DNA from: Pirellula sp.
Lineage (GTDB): Bacteria > Planctomycetota > Planctomycetia > Pirellulales > Pirellulaceae
Assembly: GCA_021736575.1 (NCBI GenBank)
Contig: JAIPFP010000010.1
Location: 1-51,003, forward strand
Direction: 5' to 3'
DNA: 51,003 bases
Below the pieces are notes generated by a model. The model had not been told where the DNA came from and searched no databases. It saw nothing but the letters and a program-made list of their open reading frames with translations. Made by a program: the position numbers and the translations under genes. Below are positions 20-49,198 of this stretch, in pieces. Each line of letters begins with the position of its first letter. Within the stretch, counting starts at the first letter, position 1.

Positions 20-2290
20 TCAGCCGGACACCAGGATTTTTGTGGCGTCTCTTGCAGCTATTTCCGGTTGCAACGCCGTCAATGCAATTCCCGATACGAC
101 TTTAGTGATGTTGTGGTCGATCTGGTCAGGAATCCCCCAATGGTTTCCGTCGGCAGTGGTCATGTAAATCGAAAGCGTGTTGTGGCCGCTGCCAGGTCGC
201 TCGCCTATCACATGAAGCAACGTTCCCTTGGCTGGCAAACCACCGAAGAGCGTTTCCCCAATGCGGTAGCCGGCTCGAACTCTGCCTGAATAAACAAGCA
301 GATGCTCCGGAGCAACCCCAAATCCGGCTGTCTGCAGCTCTTGCCGAAGAGACACCAGCAGCCTCACCATTTGGTCTTCGGTCATTACGGCCAATGCATT
401 CAGACCATCGGATATCACGATCTGAGCGTTGTATCGACCGTTGTGTGTCGCTCGTAGGTCGCGAACTTTTGCAACCGAAGATTCGGAGAGTCGTTCACCC
501 GACGTCGGATGCAGAATGTAGTCGTTGCGATCGATTGAAAGCGTCGCCAATGGCACAACTCGCGGAATGTTTTGTTCGGTTTCCTTGGTCAACTCCTTCC
601 AAATGCATTCCTTGGCACTTGCATAGATGCGATGAATCTCGTGCGACAACTCGGGTTTCGGCTTCGAGGGTTCCACGCTAAATCCTTCCGCAATGAAAAG
701 TCCTCTCGATCGAACCATCGCCATTTGTGCGGCAGCTTCTTCTTGCAGTTGTTTCTCGCTACGTGCATCTCCTTTCAGGCGGCGGTACTCGGCGTAGACC
801 CAAGCGGGATTCCCAAAGTGTTTGGTCGGTTTCCCTTCTGCGTCGACGACTCCAAGACGCTGAAAGAATCGCCACATTCGATCGTCGACTTTGTAGCCGA
901 ATTTCTCGCGAATGTGGACATGGTCATGAAAGCTCGTGGTGAGGTAACCAAGCATCGGATCCGTGCGAGTTGGCAGGGCCATCAGGTAGCCTGGGTTCGC
1001 CGGCATGATTTCATCGATGCACCATCCCAGGTCGTCCAACGTGACGTCCATGTGCAGCGTTGTGCAGATGTCGAGTCCGATCATCAACCCATGCAGTTTG
1101 CCCATGACAATGTCTTCCAGACAACAACGGACGAGTTGTTCCCTTGAGCGAAAGACTTCAGGGCCAATGAATCCTGCCACGTCATTCAAATGCACCCAAG
1201 GAGTTTGAGCGACTCCATTCGCGTCATTCTCGTCTGCCACTGTCTTTGCAAGTGACCTGGCAAAACCATATTTGCGAGATTCGAGCAAAACCATGTCCAA
1301 GCCTTTGCCATGCCCGTTGGTGAAATCTGCTCCCTGTCCCGTTTCGAAGTAGAGGGCAAACTTGCTGGTCCGCGATCGTGCGTGCTTGATCATTTTTTCG
1401 ACGGAGATATCAAATGTACCGTTGGCGGCATCGTTGCCTGCGATGCTCTGAAACCATAGGGCCGTCGACTTTGGGAATCGCCGTTCGGCCTCCGCTTGCA
1501 CGTCGATGTGGGCTAAAACGCAATGCGGTAGTATCTCAGCGATATCGAAAGTTTCAAGGACTTCTTTCAGGGCCAATTCGATGGCTGCCACCGAGTCTGG
1601 GTCGCTTGATACGGGATTTGTACCAACAAGCACATCACCTACGGCAAATGCAAACGCATTGAACAGCTGCCAGCGAATGTCATCGACATTGTCGGTAGGT
1701 GAATTCGGTTGAACGCGGGCTCCCATATAGCCGCGTGCACCAAGATTCGTACCTGGGAGTGGGTTGAAGACTTTCGATCCAACTCGAACCAGTTCGTCGT
1801 TTGTCATCAGACGGACAACGTACGCAATCACGTCGCTCGATAGTCCTTGGCGTATCGCATGGATCTCAGCTTCGCTTCGCTCCAACAAAAATCGCTTCAA
1901 GTCCCCAAGCGTCATCGCGCCGATGCGAGTCTGGATGGCTGCGTCCACAGCATCACCGATGAAATGAAAGAGTTCGTCGCGTTCTGGGGAAAGTTCGTCA
2001 ATTTGCGCGAGTGTTGTGTTCGCTAGCAACTCCCGCGATTGGATTCGCAACGCTTCGCTTGCTGCGGCGACGCCAACGATTTCGTCACCCTCTTTGAAAT
2101 CGTTGGCGGCTCCCAACATTTTCTTGTACAGTTCCTCATCCCATTCGCCGCGAACCCGATGGATCCAATCGACCAAGTTTTCACCCTCGATGGATGGTGA
2201 GAATGGCGATGCTCCAACGGCAAAGTGGCCGAGGGTGGCATTCAACGCGACTCCGGTGAGACTCAAATCAAGAAACCGCCGTCGATACAT
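20..2290 (-). CDS. eutBC: Single-chain ethanolamine ammonia-lyase (EutB-EutC fusion) with Tat-like leader
   Basis: Predicted adenosylcobalamin-dependent lyase converting ethanolamine to acetaldehyde and ammonia. The 756-residue product reads as a full large subunit (about residues 38-530, including the GVAAAS block near the start and the RGLFIAEG ending typical of EutB) followed directly by a full small subunit (about 550-756, with QIVISDGLNA and GERPGSGHNTLSIY, typical of EutC). The subunits are normally separate genes. Extra residues 1-37 precede the usual EutB start and contain a twin-arginine-like RRRFLDL stretch and a hydrophobic segment, so export is possible. That would be odd for a B12 enzyme that normally works in the cytoplasm. 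A YciI-like gene ends 12 bases upstream on the same strand. No reactivase, shell or transporter genes of a eut operon are visible. Start is ATG at 2290 and stop TGA at 20-22. Family assignment is firm; location and activity are inference. Confidence 0.9.
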   Translation of the reverse strand: MYRRRFLDLSLTGVALNATLGHFAVGASPFSPSIEGENLVDWIHRVRGEWDEELYKKMLGAANDFKEGDEIVGVAAASEALRIQSRELLANTTLAQIDELSPERDELFHFIGDAVDAAIQTRIGAMTLGDLKRFLLERSEAEIHAIRQGLSSDVIAYVVRLMTNDELVRVGSKVFNPLPGTNLGARGYMGARVQPNSPTDNVDDIRWQLFNAFAFAVGDVLVGTNPVSSDPDSVAAIELALKEVLETFDIAEILPHCVLAHIDVQAEAERRFPKSTALWFQSIAGNDAANGTFDISVEKMIKHARSRTSKFALYFETGQGADFTNGHGKGLDMVLLESRKYGFARSLAKTVADENDANGVAQTPWVHLNDVAGFIGPEVFRSREQLVRCCLEDIVMGKLHGLMIGLDICTTLHMDVTLDDLGWCIDEIMPANPGYLMALPTRTDPMLGYLTTSFHDHVHIREKFGYKVDDRMWRFFQRLGVVDAEGKPTKHFGNPAWVYAEYRRLKGDARSEKQLQEEAAAQMAMVRSRGLFIAEGFSVEPSKPKPELSHEIHRIYASAKECIWKELTKETEQNIPRVVPLATLSIDRNDYILHPTSGERLSESSVAKVRDLRATHNGRYNAQIVISDGLNALAVMTEDQMVRLLVSLRQELQTAGFGVAPEHLLVYSGRVRAGYRIGETLFGGLPAKGTLLHVIGERPGSGHNTLSIYMTTADGNHWGIPDQIDHNITKVVSGIALTALQPEIAARDATKILVSG

Positions 2291-34897: not shown

Positions 34898-37414
34898 ATG
34901 TTAAAATCTACTGTTCTCGCTTTGTCTTGCGTCGTCTTGTACTGCGCGTTCCTGGTGCAAAATACGACTTCGACAGAGCCAGACACGAGCAAGCGATCCG
35001 TCGGTTCGGACAAACGTAGTTCTGCCGCGGCGCTACCGAATCTTGAGTCGTTGCAGGTTGAGCCAAGCTTAATTGTGCTGCAAACCGCTCGAGATCCGCA
35101 ATCGGTTGTGGTTACGGCTCTGTACTCGGACGGTAGCACGAGCGATGTGACCTCATTGGTAGAACGAAATACCGTATCGTCCCCCGACGACAAGTCGAAA
35201 GCTCCAGTCGTTGACTATCTATCTGAGACATTCATTCCCCGCCGAGACGGAACGGCTCAAGTCACGTTTCGTTTTTCCGGACTTGAGACCGCGGCCAATG
35301 TCACCGTAAAGGGGTCCAGCAACCAACCTGAAATTAGCTTTCGAAACGAAGTCATGCCTACACTGACTCGTGCGGGTTGTAACACGGGTAAATGCCACGG
35401 TTCCGCATCCGGAAAGGATGGCTTTCGATTGAGTCTCTTTGGTTACGATCCTGCGGGAGATCATTATCGATTGACGCGTGAAATGAGCGGGCGTCGCATC
35501 CGACTCACGGATCCAGAGAGTTGCTTGCTGATGGCCAAAGCGACCGGCGAAGTTAATCACACTGGAGGTCAACGCATCGAAACGGGCACCAGCGCCTACG
35601 AGACTTTAATTCAGTGGCTGCATGAGGGGGCAAAACCGGATGCGAAAGATTCGGTCTTGCCAATCGGCATCGAGGTATTTCCCAAGCCTACGGTGTTTGC
35701 CGAACCCAATGGCGAGCAAAAACTAATCGTTGTGGCCAGCTACAGTGATGGTTCGCAACGCGATGTGACGCGTCTAGCTGTCTTTATGAGCAATAATGAG
35801 GCAGCCGCTGCCGTTTCTGAAGATGGACTGGTCCAAGCAAACGGACCTGGCGCAGCCTTTATCTTGGCTCGGTTCGATCAGTTCACGCAAGGCTCCACGA
35901 TCATTGTTAGGCCGGACAAACCCTTCGAATACCCACAATTGCCAACGCAGGGCGAAATCGACCAGTTGGTAGACAACCGCTTGCGATTCATGCATTTAGC
36001 ACCTTCGGAACTTGCAAATGACCAACAATTCCTGCGTCGCGTCACGATTGACTTGATTGGATTGCTGCCGACACCCGACGATTATGTTCAATTCATGAGC
36101 GACACATCCGCAGACAAACGCGAAAAGCTTGTCGATCGATTGCTCAAGCGGCCCGAGTTTCGTGATATTTGGGTCATGAAGTGGGCTGAGTTGTTACAAA
36201 TACGAACCAATAATGGAGTCAGTCCGAAAGCGCTTCGCCTCTATGATCGATGGCTACGCGACGCGGTGCATGCCGGTACGACGATCGACAAGATTGTTCG
36301 CATTCTGTTGCCCGCGAGTGGCGGTTCTCTCGAAAACCCCGCAACCAACTACTATCAAACCGAGACAACGCCACAATTGTTGGCTGAAAACGTTGCTCAG
36401 GTATTCTTAGGAACTCGCATTCAATGCGCTCAATGCCACAACCATCCTTTCGACCGTTGGACAATGGACGACTATTATGGATTTGCTTCGTTCTTTAGCC
36501 AAGTCGGATACAAGCAGGCCGAAGATCCACGTGAATTGACGATCTACAACGCCGCCGAAGGAGAGATGCTCCATCCGACCAGCAACCGCCGCGTGTTTCC
36601 CAAATTCCTCGGGGCTGAAATTCCTAAAATGAATGAGGGTCAGGACAATCGGCAAGTGCTCGCCGAGTGGGTTGCTTCGCATGAAAACGGTGCCTTCGCG
36701 AAGAATATTTCCAACATTATCTGGGCGCATTTCTTCGGTGTGGGCATCGTGGATCCGGTGGACGACATGCGCATTAGCAATCCCCCGTCCAATCCAGAAT
36801 TGCTGGATCATCTTGCTAAGAGATTGGTCCATCATCAGTTCTCGCTCGAAGGCATCGTTCGCGAGATCTGCACGTCCAGAACCTATCAGTTGGCAACCCA
36901 ACGCAACGCTTCGAATCAGTGGGATGAGCGTGAATTCTCGCATCAAAAGATTCGCCGAATGCGAGCGGAAGTACTTTTGGATTGTATCACTCAAGCCACG
37001 GAGACAACGGATCGATTGCCCGGTTTGCCGGCCGGTTCGCGAGCGGTACAAGTTGCAGATGGATTGGCTGCCCACTACTTTTTGACGACATTTGGTCGCT
37101 CGAATCGAGCCACCCCTTGCACGTGCGAAGTCAAAACATCTCCCACCTTATCCCAAGCGTTGCACTTGCTCAATGGCGAGACGACAGGGGGCAAAGTAAG
37201 CGACGGGACGTTTGTACCGAGAATGCTTGAGGCGGGAAACTCGGCAGGAGATGTCGTCAAGGCAATCTATGTTCGCTGCTTGACTCGTGAACCTACCGAT
37301 CTAGAGCTCAAATCCGTCTTCGCAAAACTGGAGTCCTACAAGGAATCTCGTGATGGCCTAGAAGATCTGTTCTGGGCCATCCTAAACTCTAATGAATTCG
37401 TATTCAACCATTAA
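34898..37414 (+). CDS. Ig-like/DUF1549/DUF1553 planctomycete cytochrome (module 2)
   Basis: Exported protein of 838 residues. A hydrophobic leader (LALSCVVLYCAFLV) is followed by a bacterial Ig-like domain (about 50-140; SDGSTSDVT). A haem-type motif of the C-x4-C-H kind (C161-NTGK-C166-H167) is in RAGCNTGKCHG. A second Ig-like repeat follows, then DUF1549 (RRVTIDLIGLLPTPDDY), a classical C510-A-Q-C513-H514 and the DUF1553 domain (IIWAHFFGVGIVDPVDDMR, TPCTCEVKTSPTLSQALHLLNG). It belongs to the subfamily with the long first haem spacing. Its last 190 bases have diverged partial copies flanking the nitric oxide synthase gene at 43.5 and 44.9 kb. Confidence 0.9.
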   Translation: MLKSTVLALSCVVLYCAFLVQNTTSTEPDTSKRSVGSDKRSSAAALPNLESLQVEPSLIVLQTARDPQSVVVTALYSDGSTSDVTSLVERNTVSSPDDKSKAPVVDYLSETFIPRRDGTAQVTFRFSGLETAANVTVKGSSNQPEISFRNEVMPTLTRAGCNTGKCHGSASGKDGFRLSLFGYDPAGDHYRLTREMSGRRIRLTDPESCLLMAKATGEVNHTGGQRIETGTSAYETLIQWLHEGAKPDAKDSVLPIGIEVFPKPTVFAEPNGEQKLIVVASYSDGSQRDVTRLAVFMSNNEAAAAVSEDGLVQANGPGAAFILARFDQFTQGSTIIVRPDKPFEYPQLPTQGEIDQLVDNRLRFMHLAPSELANDQQFLRRVTIDLIGLLPTPDDYVQFMSDTSADKREKLVDRLLKRPEFRDIWVMKWAELLQIRTNNGVSPKALRLYDRWLRDAVHAGTTIDKIVRILLPASGGSLENPATNYYQTETTPQLLAENVAQVFLGTRIQCAQCHNHPFDRWTMDDYYGFASFFSQVGYKQAEDPRELTIYNAAEGEMLHPTSNRRVFPKFLGAEIPKMNEGQDNRQVLAEWVASHENGAFAKNISNIIWAHFFGVGIVDPVDDMRISNPPSNPELLDHLAKRLVHHQFSLEGIVREICTSRTYQLATQRNASNQWDEREFSHQKIRRMRAEVLLDCITQATETTDRLPGLPAGSRAVQVADGLAAHYFLTTFGRSNRATPCTCEVKTSPTLSQALHLLNGETTGGKVSDGTFVPRMLEAGNSAGDVVKAIYVRCLTREPTDLELKSVFAKLESYKESRDGLEDLFWAILNSNEFVFNH

Positions 37415-37420
37415 TAAAAG

Positions 37421-39145
37421 ATGTCTTACAACACACTTAAAAGTTGGCATAGTCGGTTTAGCGTAACTGGCGGTTTTCTCGTGTGCATTGTCTCTCTATG
37501 GCCGAATCGTCTTGTAGCCCAGAGCATGGCATCGCAATCCGATGAACCGAGCGCGAACCAAGTCGTTTCCTATGACGCCGTGCAAGTGGTCATTCGCAAG
37601 CACTGTGCGAGTTGCCACAATGAAGACCAACCTCGCGGCGACTTGGTCTTAACCTCGTTGGACAAGGTTATGGCAGGTTCCAGTTCAGGGCCTGTTGTCG
37701 TGCCTGGTAGTGTTGCCGAGAGCCCGTTATACACGCTCGCGGCTCACTTGGACTCACCCAAGATGCCGCCCAACAAGCCTCGTATCTCACAACGGGAACT
37801 CAACTTGATAGAACGCTGGATCAATACGGGGCTCAAAGAGGAAGTGAACTCTAGTATCGCCAAGTTACCCATGGATAGCGAAACAATTGTTACTAACGAT
37901 ACGAAACAGCAAACAGTAACCTCATCTCTTCGCCGATTATCTGAAGCGACACCCATTTACGCAGTTGCTGCCCATCCCTCCGATCCGATTGTCGCCGTTG
38001 CAGGTTTCCATCAAGTTATCTTGATCCGAACCGATACTGGCAAGATCCAAGAGCAAGCCATAGACGTCGGTCAACGCGATGTGAGTGCATTGAGATTTTC
38101 TCAAGACGGAAAACGGCTTTTTATTGCTGCCGGAATAGCGGGTGGTTCTGGGACCGTGATGGTCATAGATTGGCAAGAACAAAAGTGGCTACCGAATGTT
38201 GGCGATGAACTCGATACCATTGCATCCCTCGATTGCAATCACGACTCGTCGATGCTTGCGATAGGTACCACTTCTCGCGTAGTGAAAACACTGCGAGTGG
38301 ACTCTGGCGAGCAACTCAACGCGCATCGCAAGCACACCGATTGGGTCTTGTCCGTTGCGTTCAGTCCAGACGGTCTGCTGCTGGCCAGCGGCGATCGATT
38401 CGGTGGAATTCACGTTTGGGAATCCGAGTCGGGGGCAGAGTTTGCGGGACTGCGCGGGCATTCGGGCGGAATCACTGGGTTAAGCTGGTCCCGCGATGGT
38501 AACCAATTGGCTTCGTCGAGCTTAGACGGAACTGTGCGCGTTTGGGATATGCACACATTGCAGAGCGTTGAACGTTGGGGTGCGCACGACAAAGGGGCAT
38601 TGTGCATATCCCGCGATTTTGAAGATCGTCTTGTCACGGGTGGCCGAGATGGGACAGTTCGGCAATGGGGATCGGATCGGTCCAAACCCGTTTGGGAGAA
38701 CCGGCTTTCCGATGAAGTGCTTGGACTGGCCAGTCTAAAGGGTGGGCTGTTGGCTACAGATGCTGGCGGTAGTGTTCTGCTGTTCAACACAAAGGACGCA
38801 GAGACGACTGGGATAGCTCTTGCTTTACCGATTCAAAAGACAAAACGCGTTTTCACGACGATCGCACCCATAGCGCCTAAGCGAACCTCGATCGCGAGTC
38901 AGCTTGCCTTATCGGATGCAACGATCTCGAACGATTCAACAAGTCTATCGAGCATTCCAACTGGCTTCGCTTCCGATCTGGAGGAGAGCAGACGTGCATT
39001 GTTGAGCATTGAGGAATCGTTGAAGCAAACCTATCGAACGGCGGAACAGCTCGAAGAAAGCGTTGCGAGGCTCAAGCAAATCATCGCATTGCAAGAAGCG
39101 AGACTGAAGCAACAAGAGATTCGAGAGAAAAAATTGAGTAAATAG
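37421..39145 (+). CDS. Planctomycete cytochrome-WD40 protein
   Basis: Exported protein of 574 residues. A signal peptide leads into a PSCyt1-type haem domain (C62-A-S-C65-H66, then SPKMPPNKPRISQRELNLIERWI, the methionine-containing distal part). A WD40 propeller of about seven blades follows (clear repeats at about 302-340, VAFSPDGLLLASGDRFGGIH, and 344-380, SWSRDGNQLASSSLDGTVRV), with a C-terminal coiled coil (about 520-574; EESLKQTYRTAEQLEESVAR). It lies six bases after the DUF1553 gene. Combinations of haem and propeller suggest an electron-transfer scaffold for the neighbouring DUF1553 protein. A 70-base stretch of this gene (38798-38868) recurs beside the NOS gene. Confidence 0.88.
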   Translation: MSYNTLKSWHSRFSVTGGFLVCIVSLWPNRLVAQSMASQSDEPSANQVVSYDAVQVVIRKHCASCHNEDQPRGDLVLTSLDKVMAGSSSGPVVVPGSVAESPLYTLAAHLDSPKMPPNKPRISQRELNLIERWINTGLKEEVNSSIAKLPMDSETIVTNDTKQQTVTSSLRRLSEATPIYAVAAHPSDPIVAVAGFHQVILIRTDTGKIQEQAIDVGQRDVSALRFSQDGKRLFIAAGIAGGSGTVMVIDWQEQKWLPNVGDELDTIASLDCNHDSSMLAIGTTSRVVKTLRVDSGEQLNAHRKHTDWVLSVAFSPDGLLLASGDRFGGIHVWESESGAEFAGLRGHSGGITGLSWSRDGNQLASSSLDGTVRVWDMHTLQSVERWGAHDKGALCISRDFEDRLVTGGRDGTVRQWGSDRSKPVWENRLSDEVLGLASLKGGLLATDAGGSVLLFNTKDAETTGIALALPIQKTKRVFTTIAPIAPKRTSIASQLALSDATISNDSTSLSSIPTGFASDLEESRRALLSIEESLKQTYRTAEQLEESVARLKQIIALQEARLKQQEIREKKLSK

Positions 39146-39241: not shown

Positions 39242-39278
39242 TTCGGCTATCAGTTTGTTTAACCACCCGCCCAATCCG

Positions 39279-40529
39279 ATGATAAACCTTAAAACGATTG
39301 CCTTCTTTGGACTTACCGCATTTCCAATTTCTCGAATGGTGGCGGATGACTGGCCCATGTGGCGGGGGCAACGCGGTGACGGAATCAGCCTTGAGAAGAA
39401 CGCACCATTGGAATGGTCGCCCGAAAAAAACATCCGTTGGAAGGTTGCGATCCCCGGCAACGGACGATCATCCCCAATCGTCTCGAAAGACAGTGTCTTC
39501 GTCACAACTTCATCCCCCGACACTCAGAGCCGTCGATTGATGCGAATCGATCGCGAATTGGGAGCCGTTGTGTGGGATATCGAAGTGCATTGCGGGCCAA
39601 TCGAGCAACAGCACAAGTTTAACACGAGCGCGTCGAGTACACCTGCTACCGACGGCAAACGCATCTACACGATGTTTGTCGATGATGAAAAAATGATGGT
39701 CGCAGCAGTTGGCTGGGATGGAAAAATCGAATGGCAAATTAGTCCTGGCAGCTACTCTTCTAAGCATGGTCTGGCTGCGTCCCCTGTAATTTGCGAAGCT
39801 GGTCTTTTGGTAAACGGCCATCAAGATGGAACAGCCTTTATCGTTTTACTCGATCCAGCCAACGGCCACGAGATTTGGCGATACAAGCCCGATGTGGACC
39901 TTCGATCTTTCTCAACGCCCGTCATTGCACCGATCGATGGGAGTCGGCAAATTATTGTGTCTGGTGCGAGACAAACGTTGGGTTTGGATATCGCAACGGG
40001 CACTCGACTTTGGTGGGTGGACGGACCGACAGAAAAAGTGGTATGCACTCCATCGATTGGCCTTGGGCATATCTTCAGCTTTGGCGGTTCTCCGGATGTA
40101 AGAGCGTTCGCGGTTCGACAGGGTGGACGCGGCGATTTGACAAAGACAAACATCGTTTGGACCAAGGACAGGGGTATGCCGTATGTACCAACGCCATTGC
40201 TATACAAAGAATGGATTCATGTTATCGATGATATGGGTATTTACTCGTGCCTCGAGCCGGTCAGCGGACGCGTACTAAAAACCGTGCGAAAGGGTGGTAA
40301 CACCTACAGTTCACCGGTTGGAATTGCTGACAGGGTGTACTTTTTCGACGACAACGGACTATGCACGGTGATTGCCAACAATCCAAACTATGAGGTGCTT
40401 GCCAAGAACTCGCTCGACGAACTGGTCCAAGCGAGTCCAGCGATTTCCGATGGTGCGATTTATGTCCGTGGAGAGCGTTATCTGTGGAAGATCGAGTCAA
40501 GTGCCGAGGGTAGCAGTCCTTCGCGCTAA
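39279..40529 (+). CDS. PQQ-like beta-propeller (BamB-like) protein
   Basis: Exported protein of 416 residues with a short signal-like segment (INLKTIAFFGLTAFPISRMV). It then has PQQ/BamB-like propeller blades: DDWPMWRGQRGDG, NIRWKVAIPGNGRSSPIVS, GAVVWDIEVHCG, KHGLAASPVICEAGLLV, GTRLWWVDGP and a closing QASPAISDGAIYVRGERYLW. This layout, starting with WPxWRGxxGDG, is very common in planctomycetes next to DUF1501/DUF1553 genes. ATG 39279 is preferred over a TTG at 39255. Its final 56 bases have a diverged copy at 43563-43618, just before the NOS gene. Confidence 0.88.
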   Translation: MINLKTIAFFGLTAFPISRMVADDWPMWRGQRGDGISLEKNAPLEWSPEKNIRWKVAIPGNGRSSPIVSKDSVFVTTSSPDTQSRRLMRIDRELGAVVWDIEVHCGPIEQQHKFNTSASSTPATDGKRIYTMFVDDEKMMVAAVGWDGKIEWQISPGSYSSKHGLAASPVICEAGLLVNGHQDGTAFIVLLDPANGHEIWRYKPDVDLRSFSTPVIAPIDGSRQIIVSGARQTLGLDIATGTRLWWVDGPTEKVVCTPSIGLGHIFSFGGSPDVRAFAVRQGGRGDLTKTNIVWTKDRGMPYVPTPLLYKEWIHVIDDMGIYSCLEPVSGRVLKTVRKGGNTYSSPVGIADRVYFFDDNGLCTVIANNPNYEVLAKNSLDELVQASPAISDGAIYVRGERYLWKIESSAEGSSPSR

Positions 40530-40638
40530 ACAGCATAGGGTAAAGAACTTTCCGAAACATTAATTCGCTGGCAAACCAAATTGACGGAGTTATGATCGAC
40601 GCCCCTCGATGCGGAGGAAACTGTAAAAAACATCAACC

Positions 40639-41616
40639 TTACTTGGACACCAAATCCGATGCATCAGTATGGACAGGGTCTGCCAGACTTCGAATTTTCG
40701 CTAGGTCGTCCATCAATTTACCATTCATTAAATCAGAGTCTATCTTCTGGTTGAGTGAAAACCAATGTACTCTCGCCATTACAACCTTTAGCACTCTCCT
40801 CTGTTTCTTTTTGTCAGGATTGTCCGCATTTACAACCGACACCATTGGCCCTGATTCGTTAATGACGGAAATTGGCACAAACGTACCTTCCAAGTCCTTC
40901 CATTCATAATACTCGTCAGTTTCGGGTAGGCTGACTGGCTCACGTTTGCTTGTGATTAACTTGGTGCGGGGCATCAACGTTACTGGATCAAAGGAACTTC
41001 CAATCAATACGTTCAACCTATCGAGTTTTTGCGTGAAACGTATCTCTGAGTCTGAACTAATTTCTCTAACAACGGGAAGTACATCGCCGGAAGAACTCGC
41101 AGGATTGTTTCGACGCGAGCATATTGAGTCAAATGTTTCCATATCTCCCTCAATAGCCGATCCAAAACGAGTCGGAAAATCTAACAGTCCTACACAACGA
41201 AGATCTGGTATATCCATGTTTTTTAGGACATCCAAAAGCTTCGGCTCAACTTTATTCTTCTCACCTGGGAAGCTTCGAAAGTACCCCACCTTACCATTAA
41301 ACTGGCCAACCGTCGCAATACTCAGCTTAGTGTCACCACGCCTTTGTTCAGATATGTTAACACAAAAGAACTGATTTGCTTCGAAATCAACCGCGAGCCT
41401 AATGAACCTTGTTAACGCGACATCGGAGTCGTCGTCAGGCTGAAAATAGTCCATTCGGATCAAGCAATCATACTGCCGCCAGCACGATGCATTTGCTATC
41501 GCACAATCTTTAAATTTTGTGAGTTCGTCGCCCGAAGCTGGGGCCAGACTAAGACAAGATGCGAGGGCAAACACACAAAAAAGAGCTGTCCAGTCGCTCA
41601 AAATCGGTCGCTTCAT
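40639..41616 (-). CDS. Secreted hypothetical protein (trio member 3)
   Basis: Predicted exported protein of 325 residues with a clear signal peptide (WTALFCVFALASCLSLAPAS, cleavage near SGD). The mature part is mixed alpha/beta with an acidic N-terminal half (FQPDDDSDVALTRFIRLAVD) and a strand-rich region (GTFVPISVINESGPMVSVVN). I recognise no domain. The LolA-like look of the strand pattern (DYFQ..., FSFEGKVGYF, ISSDSEIRFTQKL) is too weak to call. It is the last gene of three minus-strand secreted genes, 42 bases after the Cys-rich gene. By eye its base use is richer in A/T than the flanking modules. Confidence 0.72.
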   Translation of the reverse strand: MKRPILSDWTALFCVFALASCLSLAPASGDELTKFKDCAIANASCWRQYDCLIRMDYFQPDDDSDVALTRFIRLAVDFEANQFFCVNISEQRRGDTKLSIATVGQFNGKVGYFRSFPGEKNKVEPKLLDVLKNMDIPDLRCVGLLDFPTRFGSAIEGDMETFDSICSRRNNPASSSGDVLPVVREISSDSEIRFTQKLDRLNVLIGSSFDPVTLMPRTKLITSKREPVSLPETDEYYEWKDLEGTFVPISVINESGPMVSVVNADNPDKKKQRRVLKVVMARVHWFSLNQKIDSDLMNGKLMDDLAKIRSLADPVHTDASDLVSK

Positions 41617-41658
41617 TTTAAATTTACCCTCGGCTCAAGAAATGCACATGAAAGACAA

Positions 41659-42081
41659 TCATAGCGTGCCCGTGCAAGGAGACGACAAAACGAATGTCGC
41701 CTTACTAACAAAATTCTCGAAATCTACACCTACAGCTGCCTTGCACTGAAATGACAAATTTATAAATCTGCATTCCGTACAGTCTCGCTTTTTTGAACAA
41801 ACTACTGATCCTGTAAAGGTCAATGTGTTGAAGCCCGGAAATCCTGGCAAGGCATCTGTATGGGCATTGTAAATATTTGATTGCTTCTGCGTTTCAAAAT
41901 CGCCGTCGCACGGATCTTCCTCGCAGCCTCGACAGGGACTTGTGGCAAAGGTGGCAATACATGCTTCGTCTGTAATGTTGCCGCATACGATTATGTTGAC
42001 AATCGGAAGCTCCGGAGGATCACTATAGGCAAAGGTACTGATCGCAGAAACAAAGACCAAACACAATAAATGTCTAAACAT
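41659..42081 (-). CDS. Small secreted ten-cysteine protein (trio member 2)
   Basis: Exported protein of 140 residues starting at ATG 42081, which has a strong GGAGGT five bases upstream (42086-42091). An in-frame start at 42105 lacks this. After the signal peptide (HLLCLVFVSAISTFA) the mature part of about 120 residues contains ten cysteines (VCGN, DEACIA, SPCRGCEEDPCDGD, VVCSKKRDCTECRF, FQCK, SPCTG). Such density suggests five disulfides or metal binding in a compact extracellular domain. No known family is recognised. It lies between the DUF1573 gene and a secreted hypothetical and probably belongs to one transcript with them. Confidence 0.72.
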   Translation of the reverse strand: MFRHLLCLVFVSAISTFAYSDPPELPIVNIIVCGNITDEACIATFATSPCRGCEEDPCDGDFETQKQSNIYNAHTDALPGFPGFNTLTFTGSVVCSKKRDCTECRFINLSFQCKAAVGVDFENFVSKATFVLSSPCTGTL

Positions 42082-42113
42082 AATAACCTCCAGAAAATCG
42101 AACACACTTCTCG

Positions 42114-43178
42114 TTAAAGCCCAACAACACGCGTTGTTTGCTCACTGATTCCTTCGTTCCAACCAAATTGCCATCTCAAATTTGAGGGCAGTTTCTCGCT
42201 TTTCGATTGAACTTCCGCTTTATTGATTTCAAGCTTAACCCGATACACCGATGCGGAAACTTTATTTGACTCAACTTTGATTGCGACTCCATTGTCTGTG
42301 GCGCAACCAATAGATATTTCATCGTTCACCTTGGTCTTGCCACCGACGCCAGGAGTGTCGGCAATTCGATTGTCTCGGATAATTGCATTCGCGACCCAGC
42401 TTTTTTCGCTTGCCTTGAACCGAATCAACCCAGGCAAAATTACAACGGGACTTTCACGACCGACGAAGCACGGAATCGCATTACTAATTCCAGACTTCTT
42501 GTCTTGCACAATTAGTTCACCCGCCCAAGCCAGTTCGCCGGTGTTTTCAACTGTCGCAGTACAAATGGCGAATTGGCCGTTACCGTCCGACACCACCCTA
42601 ATTGACAGTACAGACAAATCTCCTGTCCCCTTCAGAACTATATCGCCAATTTCCAAAGGGGAAGTATACAACAAAGGCACCTTAAACTCACAACGGCTAG
42701 AATCATGACCAAGATTATGACCCACCGAATCCACCCTAAAACATGCAATACCCCGAAAGCGGAAGACAAAACCAAATTGAAATCTCGACGAATCAGATTC
42801 ATCAATCCGCACTGGCTGAGTCATTGATTCCTTCTGTGCCTTAGTCGGCACCTTCATTTTTATCTCAACGATTACTTCTTTGCCTGGCTCAATAACATCC
42901 CCAAATGCCTTCCCAGACATGCACGAGCATCCCAGTGTAATTTTCTTTATCTTAAACGGTTCGCTTGTCAAATTCCCTACTGACAAACGAACGGTTACAT
43001 CAGCACCCGCCTGAAGTTCCCCGATGTCAATCGAGGTAAAGTCCGTTGCGGATCTACTCGCAATGGATACTTTTCGTTCCACCACCGTCAACTTTTCTTC
43101 GTCCGAAAATCCGTTTGTGCCATTAACAAGAAAGAGGAGGCAACTTAGACACAAAGTAGACCGACTTCGCGATGGCAT
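42114..43178 (-). CDS. Secreted DUF1573-type protein (trio member 1)
   Basis: Exported protein of 354 residues. After the signal peptide (STLCLSCLLFLVNGTNG) residues 45-130 fit the DUF1573 beta-sandwich: IDIGELQAGADVTVRLSVGN, EPFKIKKITLGCSCMSGK and IEPGKEVIVEIKMKVP, where the GCSC stretch is the family's CGC-like signature. A second beta domain (about 190-340) repeats a similar pattern (GTGDLSVLSIRVVSDGNGQF). DUF1573 proteins are ASPM/HYDIN-like Ig folds, often surface-located in planctomycetes. It opens a three-gene minus-strand unit, 32 bases before the Cys-rich gene. Confidence 0.75.
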   Translation of the reverse strand: MPSRSRSTLCLSCLLFLVNGTNGFSDEEKLTVVERKVSIASRSATDFTSIDIGELQAGADVTVRLSVGNLTSEPFKIKKITLGCSCMSGKAFGDVIEPGKEVIVEIKMKVPTKAQKESMTQPVRIDESDSSRFQFGFVFRFRGIACFRVDSVGHNLGHDSSRCEFKVPLLYTSPLEIGDIVLKGTGDLSVLSIRVVSDGNGQFAICTATVENTGELAWAGELIVQDKKSGISNAIPCFVGRESPVVILPGLIRFKASEKSWVANAIIRDNRIADTPGVGGKTKVNDEISIGCATDNGVAIKVESNKVSASVYRVKLEINKAEVQSKSEKLPSNLRWQFGWNEGISEQTTRVVGL

Positions 43179-43469
43179 GTACAGTTCCTAAAAGATAATC
43201 GGACCGTTACTCTGTTTCCACTTCGAAATGTGGTTATAACGACTGCATTTGTAATTGCAAGAGGTTCAAACCAAGGTTTACATTTTTTTTGATGATGGTG
43301 GTCATAGACCTTATCCGATAAACTGCAATTTCTGTCGTGTTCGGCGGGTGTAACTGGCAACCTGCTGCTGTTTTGATGTGAACTTAGGAAATTGGGGTAA
43401 ACAAAAAAACGGCCAACCTGCAAGGGATTTGGGCATCTAACCATTTCACCAAGGAAGGAGGCCGTAGCC

Positions 43470-43562
43470 GAGGCGGGAAGCTCGGCAGGAGATGTCGTCT
43501 AGATAATCTATGTTCGCTGCTTGACTCGTGAACCTACCGATCAAGAGCTCAAATCCGTCTTC
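43470..43562 (+). pseudogene. Fragment of DUF1553 gene C-terminal part
   Basis: Matches 37229-37321: shared runs include atctatgttcgctgcttgac and agagctcaaatccgtctt. Scattered substitutions and an in-frame TAG show it is an old, non-functional copy. Confidence 0.9.
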
Positions 43563-43618
43563 AACGTTATCTGTGGAAGATCGAGTCAAGTGCCATGGGT
43601 TCCAGTCCTTCCCGCTAA
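43563..43618 (+). pseudogene. Fragment of PQQ-propeller gene 3' end
   Basis: Matches 40475-40530: the run gttatctgtggaagatcgag and the end ctaaa are shared, with a few changes between. It joins the DUF1553 fragment without a gap. Confidence 0.9.
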
Positions 43619-43758
43619 AGAGCACGTCCGTTGAACCATTTGTCTCCTTTGCTATACTTCAAGCATTATTTTCACCGCTTCTGCCTTCATTGGCACAACA
43701 ACAACCTCGTGCCTCAAATGGAAAAGGCATGGTTTTTTGAACGCCGAAAATATTTTAT

Positions 43759-44919
43759 ATGAATACGAATCCCTGCGATCTTTTTCTTAAAGCGGAAACT
43801 TTTTTAAATACCTGTTATCATGAATTGGAAATCACCGACAGGCTGCCCTCCCGACTGGAAGAAGTAAAAAAGGAGATAGCAGCCACTGGAACCTATTTAC
43901 AAACTGTCCAGGAACTCACACATGGTGCGCGCATGGCCTGGAGGAACAGCAACCGCTGTATTGGCCGGCTCTACTGGAAGACCCTTAAGGTCATAGACGC
44001 GCGGCATTGCTCGACTGATGACGAAATTTTTGACGCCCTGGACCATCATGTAGATTACGCGTTCAATAAGGGCAACATCAGGTCCGCCATAACGGTATTC
44101 AGGCAGCAAATGCCCGGTGAAGCAGAAGGACCGAGAATTCTTAATCATCAACTGGTTCGTTTTGCAGGCCATCAGCAAACGGACGGCTCCGTTCTAGGAG
44201 ACCCCTCCGAAGTGGAATTTACCAGATGGTGTCGCAACCGGGGGCATTCCTTCGAACACACGCCTTTTGATATGCTTCCACATGTCATTCAATGGCCGGG
44301 GCGCGAAGCAGCCATGAAGTTGTTTTCACCGCCTGAAGGGATGCTCATCCCCATTATGCATCCGGATTTTGAATGGTTTGAAGCGTTGAACATTTATTGG
44401 TATGCCGTACCCATCATTTCTGAAATGATGCTGGAGATTGGCGGCATACGCTACACCGCCGCACCTTTCAACGGATGGTATATGGTGACGGAAATTGGCT
44501 CAAGGAATTTCGGGGATGAAAACAGGTATGACCTACTGCCGGTGGTTGCCCGCAAAATCGGGTTGGATACTAGCAATGATGATACACTCTGGAAAGACCG
44601 GGCGCTGGTGGAGTTAAACAGGGCGGTGTTGTTTTCGTATCATCGGAAAGGCATCACCATGTCGAGCCATCATGAAATTTCAGAGCAGTTTATTCAGTTT
44701 GAATTATCGGAGCAGCGGCGGGGCAGGAAAATAACCGCCGACTGGATATGGATCACTCCCCCGATGAGCGCATCGGCTACCAAGGTTTTCCATAAAAATT
44801 ATGATAATACCGTAGTGACACCTAATTTTTTCTACCAGGATCCGGTTATCGGCAAACCCAGGAATGAACCGATCCAAGGATGCCCTTTCCACAGCAATTC
44901 ACTGAAAGAAAAGCTATAA
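43759..44919 (+). CDS. nos: Bacterial nitric oxide synthase oxygenase
   Basis: Predicted haem-thiolate enzyme making NO and citrulline from arginine. The 386-residue product is a complete oxygenase domain without a reductase part, like Gram-positive NOS. The haem-ligand loop is WRNSNRCIG with Cys67. The substrate/pterin region has NIYWYAVPIISEMMLEIGG and FNGWYMVTEIGSRNFGDENR with arginine-binding Glu245. HHEISEQFIQFELSEQRRGR and ADWIWITPPMSASATKVFH complete the pterin and dimer parts. No Shine-Dalgarno sequence is visible, the leader is AT-rich, and codon and base use look unlike neighbouring planctomycete genes, suggesting transfer, perhaps from Bacteroidetes, whose mRNAs usually lack that signal. 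No reductase partner is adjacent. It lies between broken copies of local genes. Confidence 0.95.
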   Translation: MNTNPCDLFLKAETFLNTCYHELEITDRLPSRLEEVKKEIAATGTYLQTVQELTHGARMAWRNSNRCIGRLYWKTLKVIDARHCSTDDEIFDALDHHVDYAFNKGNIRSAITVFRQQMPGEAEGPRILNHQLVRFAGHQQTDGSVLGDPSEVEFTRWCRNRGHSFEHTPFDMLPHVIQWPGREAAMKLFSPPEGMLIPIMHPDFEWFEALNIYWYAVPIISEMMLEIGGIRYTAAPFNGWYMVTEIGSRNFGDENRYDLLPVVARKIGLDTSNDDTLWKDRALVELNRAVLFSYHRKGITMSSHHEISEQFIQFELSEQRRGRKITADWIWITPPMSASATKVFHKNYDNTVVTPNFFYQDPVIGKPRNEPIQGCPFHSNSLKEKL

Positions 44920-44928
44920 ACTACGACT

Positions 44929-45020
44929 ATCTCGTGATGGCCTAGAAGAAGCAGAGACGACTGGGATAGCTCTTGCTTTACCGATTGAAAAGACCAAACG
45001 AGTTTTCACGACTAGCGCAC
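44929..45020 (+). pseudogene. Fused fragments of DUF1553 and WD40 genes downstream of NOS
   Basis: 44929-44949 (atctcgtgatggcctagaag) equals 37345-37365 of the DUF1553 gene, the bases that follow 24 bases after the part copied upstream of NOS. 44951-45020 matches 38798-38868 of the WD40 gene (gcagagacgactgggatagc onward, with substitutions). Together with the upstream pieces they show that NOS sits inside a diverged, rearranged duplicate of the neighbouring cluster. Confidence 0.88.
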
Positions 45021-45025
45021 ACCTA

Positions 45026-47056
45026 CTAACTGCCAATAACCCCACCGTCACGTCTTCGTATGGCGATGGTCGCGGAGCGGGGGCGTCCCCCATCCGGTCC
45101 GTCCGGCCAGTTGCTGTACTTGGTTGGCGCCATCGGGTCGCTGACTTCGTCGGCTGGCTCACCTGGGTGTTGAATGTTGACGAACATGGTCTTGCGATCG
45201 GGCGTCATAGCAATTCCAGTTATTTCGCAACCGCGAGGACCGGTTAAAAAGCGACGTACTTCCCCCGAAACAGGATCTGCCGCGAGCATCATGTTATTAC
45301 CGAGCTCGACGTAACCATCCTTTCCAAGGACGCTGCTGGACATGTCGGTTTGGATCCAAAGAACGCCAGACGAGTCAAATTTCAGACCGTCCGGGCATCC
45401 GAAGGCATCGCCCATGACATTGCCATGATGCGTCGGGTCCTTGTGAGCTGGGTTCCCAGCGACGACGAACACTTTCCACTGAAAGCTCAAGGCTGCAGGA
45501 TCGTCGCTATTCTCCTTCCAACGCAAGATATGTCCGAACAAGTTGTTAGCCCTTGGGTTTGCAGCGTCGGCTTCCTTACGACTTTTGTTGTTCGTAAGCG
45601 AAACATAGACCTCGTGGGTCTTTGGGTGGACAGCGACCCACTCAGGACGATCCATCGGTGTAGCACCAGCAGCAGTGGCCGCTAAGCGTGTTCGAATGCA
45701 GATATCTGCTTGGTCGAAACCCTCGCTATCGTTGGAATGTTTCTTCGTTGGAATTCCATTCTCTCCAGGCACAAGTGCCAACCATCGACCGGTTCCATCG
45801 GCATCGAACCGAGCGACATACAGCGTTCCCTCATCCAAGAGGTTGTTGCTCGAACCGTTGCCATTTTCGGATGTCTTCCAAACGTTCTTTGAAACGAATT
45901 TGTAGACAAATTCATTCATCTCATCGTCCCCCATATAGACGACGATCCGACCGTCTTTCGCGACCACGAGCTCTGCGTTCTCATGTTTGATTCTGCCCAA
46001 AGCCGTTCGCTTAATAGGCTTGGAACTTGGATCAAACGGATCGATTTCGACTACAAATCCAAATCGCTTCGAATCATTGTCCGGGTTGGCAAGATCGAAT
46101 CGACGATCTTGTTCCCACCATCGAAAGGCTCCTACCTTTTGACCATTGATGGTATAGGCAAAGCCGCTTGGGTTAAGTCCATATCGTTTTTGGTCGGCCG
46201 AGGGTGTGAACTTTGGTTCGTTGGTCCCAAAGACCCCTTGGAAATTCTCTTCGCACGTAAGATACGTTCCCCATGGAGTTCGACCGGCCGCACAATTGTT
46301 GATAGTTCCGCGTACTGGCTCGCCCAGTTGCCCTGCCGCAGGCCCCGAGATCTTCATCGGCGTGTCCGCAGTGATTCGACGTGCTTTAGGAGACGGCCTT
46401 AGTTCCCACTTGCCGGCCGCATTGCGCTCGATTTCAACAATCGATACTCCATGAGAGGCCATCGATTTACGTACTTTCTCAAGGGGCATGAGTGCCGGTG
46501 GCAAAGGCTCCAAGCCATCCGAAAAAAGAAGCACTTGATCGGTGTACTCATGGTTGACCGCGAGCAAACCACGCTGATTGGGATCCTGCCCGGGGATTGC
46601 AAAGAACTCCATTCCGTCGTGCCCCATACCTGCTTGGAGCATCTGTTCGTCAGCCGTGTTCGACGCATCCGCACGGAACTTTGGCGTCGAGCCATTGATC
46701 GGGTCGCCCCAGCGATAAAGCACTTCCGTTTCGTAACCTTCGGGAACAACCACGGCGTCGCTTTGTGAAGCGGAAACATTCTTGAAATGGAAGAGGGATG
46801 TCGGAACGTTGGGCTCCACCACTTCGCGAGTCGCAACTTCTGCAGCCTCGCTCGAATTCGACAACAACGCAGAGCAAGCTCCCACCATCGCAACATTCAA
46901 GAATGACCTTCGATCAAGCGACTGTTCAATCATTTCCCGAAGAGGTGTTGCCCGAAGAGGTGTTGCCCCAAGCGATGTTGCCCCATGCGATGTTGATTGT
47001 GAATCCACTTCAGAATGGCTCTCGGTGTTCATGGTTTGTGATGGGTTCGTGGTCAT
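45026..47056 (-). CDS. phoX: PhoX-type alkaline phosphatase (DUF839) with Tat signal
   Basis: Predicted exported phosphatase that releases phosphate from organic esters, with Ca2+ and Fe as cofactors in the characterised family. The 676-residue product has a twin-arginine leader (R49-R50-S-F-L then NVAMVGACSALL). Family blocks follow: VPEGYETEVLYRWGDPI, AVNHEYTD, CAAGRTPWGTYLTCEENFQG, KRTALGRIKHENAELVVA, VVYMGDDE, FGCPDGLKFDSSGVLWIQTD and GPRGCEITGIAMTPD. The start ATG 47056 lies four bases after the stop of the ArsC-like gene, so the two are co-translated. The frame reaches 47197 inside that gene but is not coding there. The N-terminus before the Tat motif holds 15-base repeats. Confidence 0.9.
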   Translation of the reverse strand: MTTNPSQTMNTESHSEVDSQSTSHGATSLGATPLRATPLREMIEQSLDRRSFLNVAMVGACSALLSNSSEAAEVATREVVEPNVPTSLFHFKNVSASQSDAVVVPEGYETEVLYRWGDPINGSTPKFRADASNTADEQMLQAGMGHDGMEFFAIPGQDPNQRGLLAVNHEYTDQVLLFSDGLEPLPPALMPLEKVRKSMASHGVSIVEIERNAAGKWELRPSPKARRITADTPMKISGPAAGQLGEPVRGTINNCAAGRTPWGTYLTCEENFQGVFGTNEPKFTPSADQKRYGLNPSGFAYTINGQKVGAFRWWEQDRRFDLANPDNDSKRFGFVVEIDPFDPSSKPIKRTALGRIKHENAELVVAKDGRIVVYMGDDEMNEFVYKFVSKNVWKTSENGNGSSNNLLDEGTLYVARFDADGTGRWLALVPGENGIPTKKHSNDSEGFDQADICIRTRLAATAAGATPMDRPEWVAVHPKTHEVYVSLTNNKSRKEADAANPRANNLFGHILRWKENSDDPAALSFQWKVFVVAGNPAHKDPTHHGNVMGDAFGCPDGLKFDSSGVLWIQTDMSSSVLGKDGYVELGNNMMLAADPVSGEVRRFLTGPRGCEITGIAMTPDRKTMFVNIQHPGEPADEVSDPMAPTKYSNWPDGPDGGRPRSATIAIRRRDGGVIGS
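46937..46996 (-). repeat. 15-bp tandem repeat in phoX leader
   Basis: Four units of 15 bases (two identical ccgaagaggtgttgc, then two variants ending gcgatgttg) at 46937-46951, 46952-46966, 46967-46981 and 46982-46996. On the coding strand they add repeats of ATPLR/ATSLG ahead of the Tat motif, lengthening the N-region of the leader. Confidence 0.88.
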
Positions 47057-47060
47057 GGCG

Positions 47061-47765
47061 TTACTTGACGTTTGGTTGATGCACAAGGGACATAACGTAG
47101 AGCATTTCTCTGGCGATCTGCTCGCCCCGCTTGTCGTAGGTGGCGGATTCACTCGGCGTACCATCCGAGACCTTGGGGTCATCGTATGGAATTGCAACTC
47201 GCAAATCGCATCCAGGAGCTGTTGGACATGCCTTGTCGGCTTGCGAGCAAGTCATGATTGCACAATAGCCACTGGTTGGGTTCGGAGCATCATTGTAGAC
47301 TTTGGAAAAACAAGTGATAGGCTCTCCACTATCTTGGAAACGTACGGAATAGTGAGGGTTGGCATCCGAAGGGGACGTCGCGTCCGCTTTGAAACCAGAG
47401 CGTTTCAACGCTGCAATCGTGCGAGGGTTGCAAGCCGTGGCTTCCGTCCCACCCGAGAATGAGACGACGTTTTTGATTCCGTAGTGAGATGCAGCCGTTT
47501 GCGCCCACACTTGTGTGAAATGACTTCGCCGCGAATTATGAGTGCACACGAAGGTCAGTTTGGCAGGCTTGCCTTGCGAGTCGCATTTTTGAATGTAGAC
47601 GGCTAATTGCTTTAGCTGCGCTTTTCGCTCGTCGGATATCTCGCCAAACTCGGCCTTGCGCTGTTCAACAAATTTCGCAATCTCTGGGTAAAGTTCGGCA
47701 CGCGTCGAAGTTGTTGTCATTGAGAACATCCACAAACAAGAAAGTATTGTCAAAGAACGTATCAT
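47061..47765 (-). CDS. Exported ArsC/LMW-PTP-like protein
   Basis: Protein of 234 residues related to low-molecular-weight phosphatases and thioredoxin-coupled arsenate reductases. A signal peptide (LTILSCLWMFSMTTTS) and a helical spacer precede the phosphate-binding loop C74-THNSR-R80-S. The ArsC-type redox pair C173-SQADKA-C180-P is present, as is the IPYDDP block with Asp195. The full three-Cys relay is intact, so arsenate reduction or a phosphatase activity is plausible, but the signal peptide would place it outside the cytoplasm, where such enzymes are not usual. GAGGT precedes ATG 47765. It is four bases upstream of phoX. A frame start at 47801 is less likely. Confidence 0.85.
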   Translation of the reverse strand: MIRSLTILSCLWMFSMTTTSTRAELYPEIAKFVEQRKAEFGEISDERKAQLKQLAVYIQKCDSQGKPAKLTFVCTHNSRRSHFTQVWAQTAASHYGIKNVVSFSGGTEATACNPRTIAALKRSGFKADATSPSDANPHYSVRFQDSGEPITCFSKVYNDAPNPTSGYCAIMTCSQADKACPTAPGCDLRVAIPYDDPKVSDGTPSESATYDKRGEQIAREMLYVMSLVHQPNVK

Positions 47766-47821
47766 GTCTACCTCACTCTGTAGGTCGCCTGAACACATCA
47801 AAACCGAGCGCGTAGATTATC

Positions 47822-49198
47822 TCATGTGCGGTTTCTGGCAATCCCGGCGTTGTTAAGAATCGGTGAAGAGTCGTGGAGTTTTATGGAAGTTCCAGCCTTG
47901 ATTCTCGAAAAATAGACTGCCGCGATGACCGTAAAGACCAAGCTAATCGCCACCGATATCCAGCAGGCCCACCGAAACCCGATCAAAATTTGCGTTGTAG
48001 AAGAAACGTCTGCCTTTGCCAAAAAGTTTCGGAAGATCATGATGGCGACATACCCGCAGTAACCTAACGAATCAACAATGTACATCAGAAAGCCAATGTT
48101 GCCCCGATCGCGGGTCAACGCAATCATCCGCTCGAACACCGTCGTGTGAATGGCCACATAGGGCAAGTACAGGCCCGCTCCGACCATTACCATAAATCCA
48201 AGCGGCGAAATGATCGACATGTCTTGAAGAATCATTGAGCCAGCGATCATCAGAAAGCCTACGAAGGATACGCCAAATGAAAGCATCAAAGCTCGCTTGT
48301 TGTCCCGAATTGCAACGCTGAGACCGTTTACCACAAGCACGATGGCTGCAACACATGTATCGATTGTCGCATAGGCTGAGGGCTTTACGTTCGCCCCCAT
48401 GCCCGAAAGTATCTCGGGCGCAAAGTCGTCTCGAAAACTCCGAAGGATGGTCGTCAAAAAGTACAAGACAGCCACCGATCCAATGCCAACGCCGTACGTC
48501 GACAGCAAGCTCCATCGATCTGCTCCCGACATGGGCGAACGTTCGCTTCGTTCCAGAATATCTCGATCAGTGGGTGAAGGGACTTGCGCAAGCATCCAAA
48601 CACTTACCAGCAACGGAACGACAAATAACAGCCCTGCAATAAACGGCATCCATCGTTCTGCAACCACCATCGAAAGCCCTAACGATTCGGTCGAATAACC
48701 AAGTACCCATTGCCCAATCGTTTTCGAAAAGCCACCCGCCAATATAAAACTTGCACAAAGCCCCGCCGTCAAGGCTTCTGTCATGCGTCGCCCCTCAAGG
48801 AAACCGAGCACCAGACCAAAGACCATCCCCAGCGGCAGCCCATTCAGAAAAATGGCGAGTATATGAAACGGTGGGGGAACGAGAGCAAACAAGAGCAATG
48901 CCAAGTGAGACGCCAAGATCAACCCCAGCAGCAACACCGCGCGCTTGCCGCGAGACACTTCCGAAACAACTTTTACTCCGATCAGTTTCGAAATCAGATA
49001 ACCGATCACTTGAGCTGAAACCAGCAGGGTCTTCTGATCCCAATCCGACAAAACGGCTTCTTTGTAGGACGCAGCCGTGAAAGGCTTTCGGAACATATAC
49101 ATGCAAAAGTACGTCCCGAAGGCAGCGGTAACCGCCCACAGGTTGAGCAACCATGGACGTTTGCTCAATTCAAGTTGAAGTCGTGAGGTAAAGTACAT
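47822..49198 (-). CDS. MFS transporter, DUF5690-like
   Basis: Membrane protein of 458 residues with about twelve hydrophobic helices. The N-terminal motif TYFCMYMFRKPFTAASYKEA (29-48) and the EGRRMTEALTAGLCASFILA loop fit the DUF5690 branch of the major facilitator superfamily. The substrate is not known from sequence. Its place between an HD-domain protein linked to phosphonates (22 bases upstream) and the ArsC-like/phoX pair suggests phosphonate or organophosphate uptake. That is inference from neighbours only. Confidence 0.8.
   Translation of the reverse strand: MYFTSRLQLELSKRPWLLNLWAVTAAFGTYFCMYMFRKPFTAASYKEAVLSDWDQKTLLVSAQVIGYLISKLIGVKVVSEVSRGKRAVLLLGLILASHLALLLFALVPPPFHILAIFLNGLPLGMVFGLVLGFLEGRRMTEALTAGLCASFILAGGFSKTIGQWVLGYSTESLGLSMVVAERWMPFIAGLLFVVPLLVSVWMLAQVPSPTDRDILERSERSPMSGADRWSLLSTYGVGIGSVAVLYFLTTILRSFRDDFAPEILSGMGANVKPSAYATIDTCVAAIVLVVNGLSVAIRDNKRALMLSFGVSFVGFLMIAGSMILQDMSIISPLGFMVMVGAGLYLPYVAIHTTVFERMIALTRDRGNIGFLMYIVDSLGYCGYVAIMIFRNFLAKADVSSTTQILIGFRWACWISVAISLVFTVIAAVYFSRIKAGTSIKLHDSSPILNNAGIARNRT

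Follow-up and report, generated by a model that had tools for sequence, protein, structure and literature searches.

A stand-alone nitric oxide synthase (NOS) oxygenase gene, predicted to be working, was found in the window, the 51,003-nucleotide stretch of Pirellula sp. DNA analysed here. The gene probably came from a lineage outside the Planctomycetota, likely on a segment that held just this gene and its leader, was gained before the genome of the window (G000; G-numbers label genomes and L-numbers label loci) and its relative G023 split, and was kept under purifying selection, without deriving directly from the fused NOS of its genus-mates. We assigned this reading as a whole a probability of about 0.82.

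The gene was delimited by its open reading frame, its Pfam match and its alignment:
43759..44919, plus strand, stand-alone NOS oxygenase gene, 386 amino acids
The frame started with ATG, ended with TAA and contained 386 codons. The product matched the Pfam NO_synthase profile PF02898 with 499 bits (8.9e-150) over positions 5-359 of 362, and this was the single Pfam domain of the 386-residue frame, so that it had both the full-length domain and the lack of a fused reductase that mark a stand-alone bacterial NOS oxygenase. An NCBIfam scan of the protein assigned no family. The best solved relative was the Geobacillus NOS 2flq (1.3e-122), and the Bacillus NOS oxygenase was also among the best. 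PF02898 had one match in the window genome (94.76% complete), which makes this gene its sole NOS. The protein ended in a GCPFH tail, and a CP pair near the end was also present in Nostoc, Rhodococcus, and Deinococcus. The AlphaFold model, built with four sequences, was poor (mean pLDDT of 54.5) and was left unused.

Alignment of 25 NOS domains showed that Trp61, Arg62, Arg66, Cys67, Glu245, Asn250, Trp329, and Trp331 were identical in all 25 and that Arg249 was conserved in 24; C67, W61, E245, R249, and W331 agreed with the corresponding residues of 1m7v and 2flq. The sequence-only reading had called the gene a complete NOS oxygenase with Cys67 and Glu245 and without an adjacent reductase, and it was right on each point: the profile was covered nearly in full, both columns were invariant, and no flavin- or ferredoxin-type reductase was found among the seven neighbouring proteins scanned. 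We take C67 to be the haem ligand, W61 the neighbouring Trp, E245 the arginine-binding residue, and R249 and W331 the pterin site. By family knowledge, the enzyme would bind haem via Cys67 and L-arginine via Glu245, reduced pterin or folate would sit beside Arg249 and Trp331, and the protein would act as a dimer, oxidising L-arginine to citrulline and NO. Since the window NOS has no reductase of its own, the electrons would come from unlinked general reductases; oxygenase-only bacterial NOS can use non-dedicated reductases. Ile220 aligned with Ile218 of the B. subtilis chain, and we assume that it occupies the substrate-side isoleucine position, presumably the gate position that published work associates with a slow release of NO. 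In the excerpted account of PMC9500659, an isoleucine near the substrate in bacterial NOS corresponds to a valine in mammals. Two positions were unusual. Phe135 was shared by G000 and G023, with Tyr in the other 23 rows of the alignment, and Val243 was replaced by Gly in G023 and was peculiar to the window NOS among the 25 rows.

It is improbable that the protein has the NOS fold and yet makes no free NO, for example by feeding a nitration reaction or by being inactive for want of a reductase. Such a protein would fit a genome with a single flavodoxin_1 match, located in a 199-residue ORF that by our reading resembles the WrbA-type quinone reductases, and with no match to the reductase part of the G005 fused NOS in a search run without a positive control, as well as the unusual Val243 and Phe135. 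However, the catalytic columns were intact, dN/dS was 0.26, and the oxygenase domain alone is described as the form of most bacterial NOS in the excerpts of PMC3701330 and PMC9500659. The family and the residues thus point to a working stand-alone bacterial NOS oxygenase that would synthesize NO. The roles named for NOS in other bacteria include oxidative-stress protection and biofilm control (PMC9500659, in excerpt).

NOS is rare but not unknown in Planctomycetota. PF02898 was matched in 5 of 27 genomes of the genus, 4 of 392 in a draw from the phylum, 6 of 147 relatives, 6 of 241 genomes of the family, 6 of 397 in a draw from the class, 1 of 29 in the class of G197, and 2 of 121 in the order of G296; the sets overlap and the first five include G000, so the rates are not additive. 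The idea that a planctomycete NOS would be unprecedented was therefore mistaken, with 15 distinct positive genomes (G000, G005, G006, G017, G023, G091, G197, G296, G469, G855, G856, G896, G920, G947, and G1043) and five in the genus including that of the window. The stand-alone form occurred in only two of the 27 genus genomes, G000 and G023, and both forms of NOS occurred together in none of the 27. No description of a planctomycete NOS was found in the titles and abstract openings returned by the literature searches. As a separate observation, a radical-SAM gene lay directly upstream of NOS in G296 (L017:8972-10558) and on two alphaproteobacterial plasmids (L027:1-2673 and L029:1-2595), with an overlap of 4 bases between the two genes on both plasmids; this is possibly a conserved operon.

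The phylogeny placed the window gene apart from the other planctomycete NOS. In the tree of the 25 NOS domains (leaving out G017, which is on two contigs, G091, a 118-residue piece at a contig end, the plasmid hits H1, H2, H6, and H11 of 14, and both phage hits), the window NOS and that of G023 formed a pair (100/100), which was joined by Natribaculum, Geobacillus, B. subtilis, and Rhizobium in a set supported at 98/98, with the planctomycete fused genes elsewhere in the tree. The six-row set held at 98/99 when three NOS rows from viral contigs were added. The approximately unbiased (AU) tests, whose groups were picked partly after the tree was seen, rejected clades of the pair with six fused rows (G005, G006, G469, G920, G856, and G855; p 0.0023), of the pair with G896, G197, and G947 (p 0.018), and of 11 planctomycete rows together (p 0.0037, or 0.0083 with the viral rows added), the last set being without G296 and G1043, whose rows fell with those of Alphaproteobacteria. 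When the pair was constrained to a clade with just Natribaculum, Geobacillus, and B. subtilis, the test gave no rejection (p 0.44, or 0.35 with the viral rows). The tree check proposed along with the sequence-only reading thus put the gene outside the planctomycete NOS, with groupings with the fused NOS rejected at p 0.002-0.018.

Vertical descent would have an ancestral planctomycete fused NOS lose its N-terminal reductase and leave the oxygenase behind, and the fused NOS of the same genus (G005, G006, and G017) and family (G469) make this conceivable. We considered it very improbable, since the grouping with the fused clade was rejected (p 0.0023), the identity of the window NOS to eight fused genes in a 23-row alignment was 38-47% as against 55% to the archaeal NOS, the arginine codons were foreign, and the neighbouring genes differed, as seen by comparing the window proteins with G023, G024, and four other stretches and by reading the ORF lists of the fused loci. 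AGG accounted for 9 of the 26 arginine codons of the NOS and 9 of the 25 of its G023 counterpart, whereas its share over the window's 24 remaining long ORFs was 4.9% (binomial p 2.4e-6, uncorrected for the inspection of all codons), and CGA made up 1 of 26 as against 31%. The AGG share was the highest of the 25 ORFs, followed by that of the hypothetical gene 40639-41616 (5 of 21), and the codon-preference score was the second lowest (z -2.6), the lowest being that of the same hypothetical gene. The claim of a codon look different from the neighbours was borne out by these arginine codons and this score but not by GC3, which was 0.544 in the NOS and 0.545 on average (sd 0.039) in the other 24 ORFs.

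Taken together, the tree and the codons supported horizontal transfer of the NOS well. An origin in another phylum, as first proposed, fitted the tree and the AU tests, but no close donor was found in the sets searched, which did not cover Bacteroidota and most other phyla; within these sets, the nearest protein outside the pair was the Natribaculum NOS at 55% identity. A contig scan with patterns from the window sequence alone found one relative. A viral origin was considered and rejected: a viral scan with the single window sequence found nothing, and an alignment scan found three NOS contigs, none closer than 51% and none inside the six-row set of the window gene. The phage collection held two Staphylococcus phage records with NOS, which were not used. 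On two of the IMG/VR contigs, NOS stood beside globin genes, at L043:4902-6739 by a globin gene and at L044:3628-6083 by a globin-FAD-NAD gene with the layout of flavohaemoglobin; one of ten neighbours at L043 matched PHROGs, and the viral origin of that contig is putative.

The surroundings of the gene consisted of fragments copied from nearby genes and of the following features:
39255..40529, plus strand, PQQ-type beta-propeller gene, which flanks NOS on the left in G023 as well
40530..43469, no strand assigned, block of about 3 kb absent from the G023 locus
43470..43562, plus strand, 93-bp partial copy (94.6%) of the end of the PSCyt2/PSD1 gene, with its source at 37229-37321
43565..43624, plus strand, 60-bp copy (90%) of the PQQ-type gene's 3' end, with its source at 40476-40535
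43625..43758, plus strand, leader, common to G023 by comparison with it
44929..44949, plus strand, 21-bp exact copy of the PSCyt2/PSD1 gene at 37345-37365, its first bases inside the stretch, up to 44941, that G023 also has
44948..45020, plus strand, 73-bp copy (91.8%) of positions 38795-38867 in the PSCyt1-WD40 gene, in G024 the end of a longer copy
45026..47197, minus strand, PhoX alkaline phosphatase, present in G024 and reduced in the G023 locus to a short 3' remnant on the left side of NOS
47061..47801, minus strand, LMWPc/arsenate-reductase-like protein, by matches below the curated cut-offs
47822..49198, minus strand, DUF5690 gene, the right neighbour common to G023 and G024
The block 40530-43469 contained the hypothetical genes 40639-41616 and 41659-42105 and a DUF1573 protein gene at 42114-43178; its two long ORFs had a GC content of 45-46%, and the block was followed by gene-end fragments including the 60-bp copy of the PQQ 3' end. 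What was new to the site was about 1.3 kb (43625-44928), the NOS and its leader. The leader held a sigma-70-like TTGAAC-16-TATACT at 43631-43658, a weak match as three such occurred in 43500-45060 and the shuffle mean was 2.2. The scan of the seven neighbouring proteins named no transposase or integrase. Elsewhere in the window, the large (EutB) and light (EutC) chains of ethanolamine ammonia-lyase were joined in one ORF (23-2290, minus strand).

These fragments suggest that the NOS segment would have entered a decayed duplicate of the planctomycete PSCyt2/PSD1 cluster, most likely as a single gene with its own leader, and that the entry may have been an illegitimate recombination into the decaying duplicate. 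A possible remnant of an upstream gene, a frame whose final ATGA overlaps the NOS start in G000 and G023 alike, was treated as chance or decay: by eye, its two copies differed mostly by amino-acid changes, and it was unlike the ends of the genes that precede NOS in Jannaschia, Novosphingobium, G296, and Nostoc. A chimeric assembly or a contaminating contig could be suspected from the fragmentation of both genomes (353 and about 390 contigs), the small repeated fragments around the gene and the contamination estimate of 3.24 for G000. Such a join was so unlikely that we gave it hardly any probability, because the order and orientation of the PQQ-type gene, the NOS, and the DUF5690 gene are the same in G023, at about 5-6% DNA divergence, and the nearby genes carry the planctomycete domains PSCyt1, PSCyt2, and PSD1.

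The comparison with G023 also dated the gain. The NOS block (43615-44941) was 94.5% identical to G023 and its flanks were 95.2% and 93.6% identical. The dN and dS of the NOS were 0.033 and 0.126, and the dS was within the range of four flanking genes (0.116-0.137), therefore the NOS predates the split; its dN/dS of 0.26 was slightly above their 0.15-0.23. The NOS was present in the common ancestor of G000 and G023 and has been under purifying selection since. The arrival had been called recent, and of this the horizontal origin stood, while the date was bounded to before the G023 split and perhaps before that of G024. The lack of a Shine-Dalgarno sequence was confirmed, with no such run just before the ATG, but neither this nor the leader is evidence of recent transfer because both are common to G023, nor is the GC3, which is as in the neighbours.

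The third genome, G024, grouped with G000 and G023 (100/99) in the tree of DUF5690, from which the program discarded G015 and which lacked G001 and G009 for want of a match. Over 2849 shared columns, it had 109 private differences as against 71 in the window and 57 in G023, and therefore G024 was, under a clock, the first to branch off. It had no NOS by PF02898 and no close PQQ-type gene (best 38%), and on its contig a truncated copy of PSCyt1-WD40 ran straight into PhoX. Since the PQQ gene adjoins the same partners in G014, G015, and G025, G024 most simply lost an interval including this gene by deletion; its missing NOS is therefore silent on whether the gain came before or after its branching. 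Gain before the G024 split with later loss there, in place of gain on the stem of G000 and G023, had a chance not far short of even. It would account for the joint absence of the PQQ gene, which looks old in the genus, and of the NOS at the point where the truncated copy meets PhoX; against that, it needs one extra event for the NOS, there is no positive sign that G024 ever had the NOS, and its copy could be the decayed duplicate instead of the original cluster.

More striking than the window gene was the unrelated NOS of its genus-mates, fused to cyclic-nucleotide-binding (cNMP) and [2Fe-2S] domains. In G005, G006, and G017 the NOS was at the end of a long frame, that of G017 spanning two contigs and being taken as one gene. 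By Pfam, these three (in the N-terminal part for G017) and G469, G920, G856, and G947 combined NOS with a BFD-like [2Fe-2S] domain and a pair of cyclic-nucleotide-binding stretches. These seven, of which five had a FAD-binding match, were located as follows:
L012:7161-10391, fused NOS with paired cyclic-nucleotide-binding and BFD-like [2Fe-2S] domains
L013:7663-10914, fused NOS, the same layout
L014:9177-11954, fused NOS, the same layout
L036:1608-5177, fused NOS, the same layout
L038:954-4202, fused NOS, the same layout
L039:4941-8213, fused NOS, the same layout
L037:6087-9347, fused NOS, the same layout
In G855 a single weak cNMP match fell short of the cut-off, and G197 had none. The [2Fe-2S] domain was found in all nine fused planctomycete genes scanned and the FAD-binding match in six (G005, G017, G469, G856, G947, and G197, absent in G006, G920, and G855); no NAD-binding match was among the Pfam matches listed for the nine. 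The pattern GEQ...R-[ST]-A-[ST], which we take to be like a phosphate-binding-cassette motif, was found in the first cNMP domain of G005, G006, G017, G469, and G947, with a second copy in G947; G920 and G856 had GAQ instead of GEQ, and G855 and G197 had no such string.

The paired cNMP domains make the seven fused genes possible cyclic-nucleotide-controlled NO synthases. A wider proposal, which we put forward tentatively and hold to be rather less probable than not, is that the genus gained NOS at least twice in two unrelated forms, never together in the 27 genomes, one a reductase-less oxygenase and the other a self-sufficient enzyme in which paired N-terminal cNMP domains would gate the electron flow from [2Fe-2S]/FAD to haem. 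If true, the fused form would be a bacterial NO synthase under the control of cAMP or cGMP. The window gene alone would be of little surprise to a NOS specialist. Planctomycetota joins the NOS-bearing lineages with a carriage that is rare and patchy and includes at least two kinds of enzyme, and the genus offers a natural comparison between a reductase-less NOS and a fused NOS with cyclic-nucleotide domains, which makes testable the electron source of the stand-alone NOS and second-messenger gating of bacterial NO synthesis.

Among the known systems, the animal type has a C-terminal flavoprotein reductase and an N-terminal Cys-X4-Cys zinc site, and the window NOS had neither, the Cys-X4-Cys being absent from the N-terminus as read from the protein sequence. 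In the NOS of Sorangium cellulosum, an N-terminal reductase with 2Fe2S, FAD, and NAD motifs precedes the oxygenase, and the word "cyclic" was not in the excerpted account of this enzyme (PMC3701330). Compared by description only, the fused planctomycete NOS is similar to this type in layout and in the order of reductase and oxygenase, while the window NOS belongs to the same oxygenase family, has no [2Fe-2S]-FAD-NAD reductase N-terminal to the NOS domain, and stands apart from the planctomycete fused genes. The haloarchaeal NOS on a plasmid of Natribaculum luteum (WP_246975338.1) is likewise a separate oxygenase gene and the nearest by identity outside the pair (55%), but comes from another domain of life and ends a few residues past the NOS domain, without the long tail of the window protein. 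Relative to the B. subtilis 1m7v and Geobacillus 2flq enzymes, the window NOS has a longer C-terminal tail, which contains GCPFH, and carries Phe135 in place of Tyr and Val243 in place of Gly; it shares with them the single NOS oxygenase domain, the haem, arginine, and pterin-site columns, and the gate Ile.
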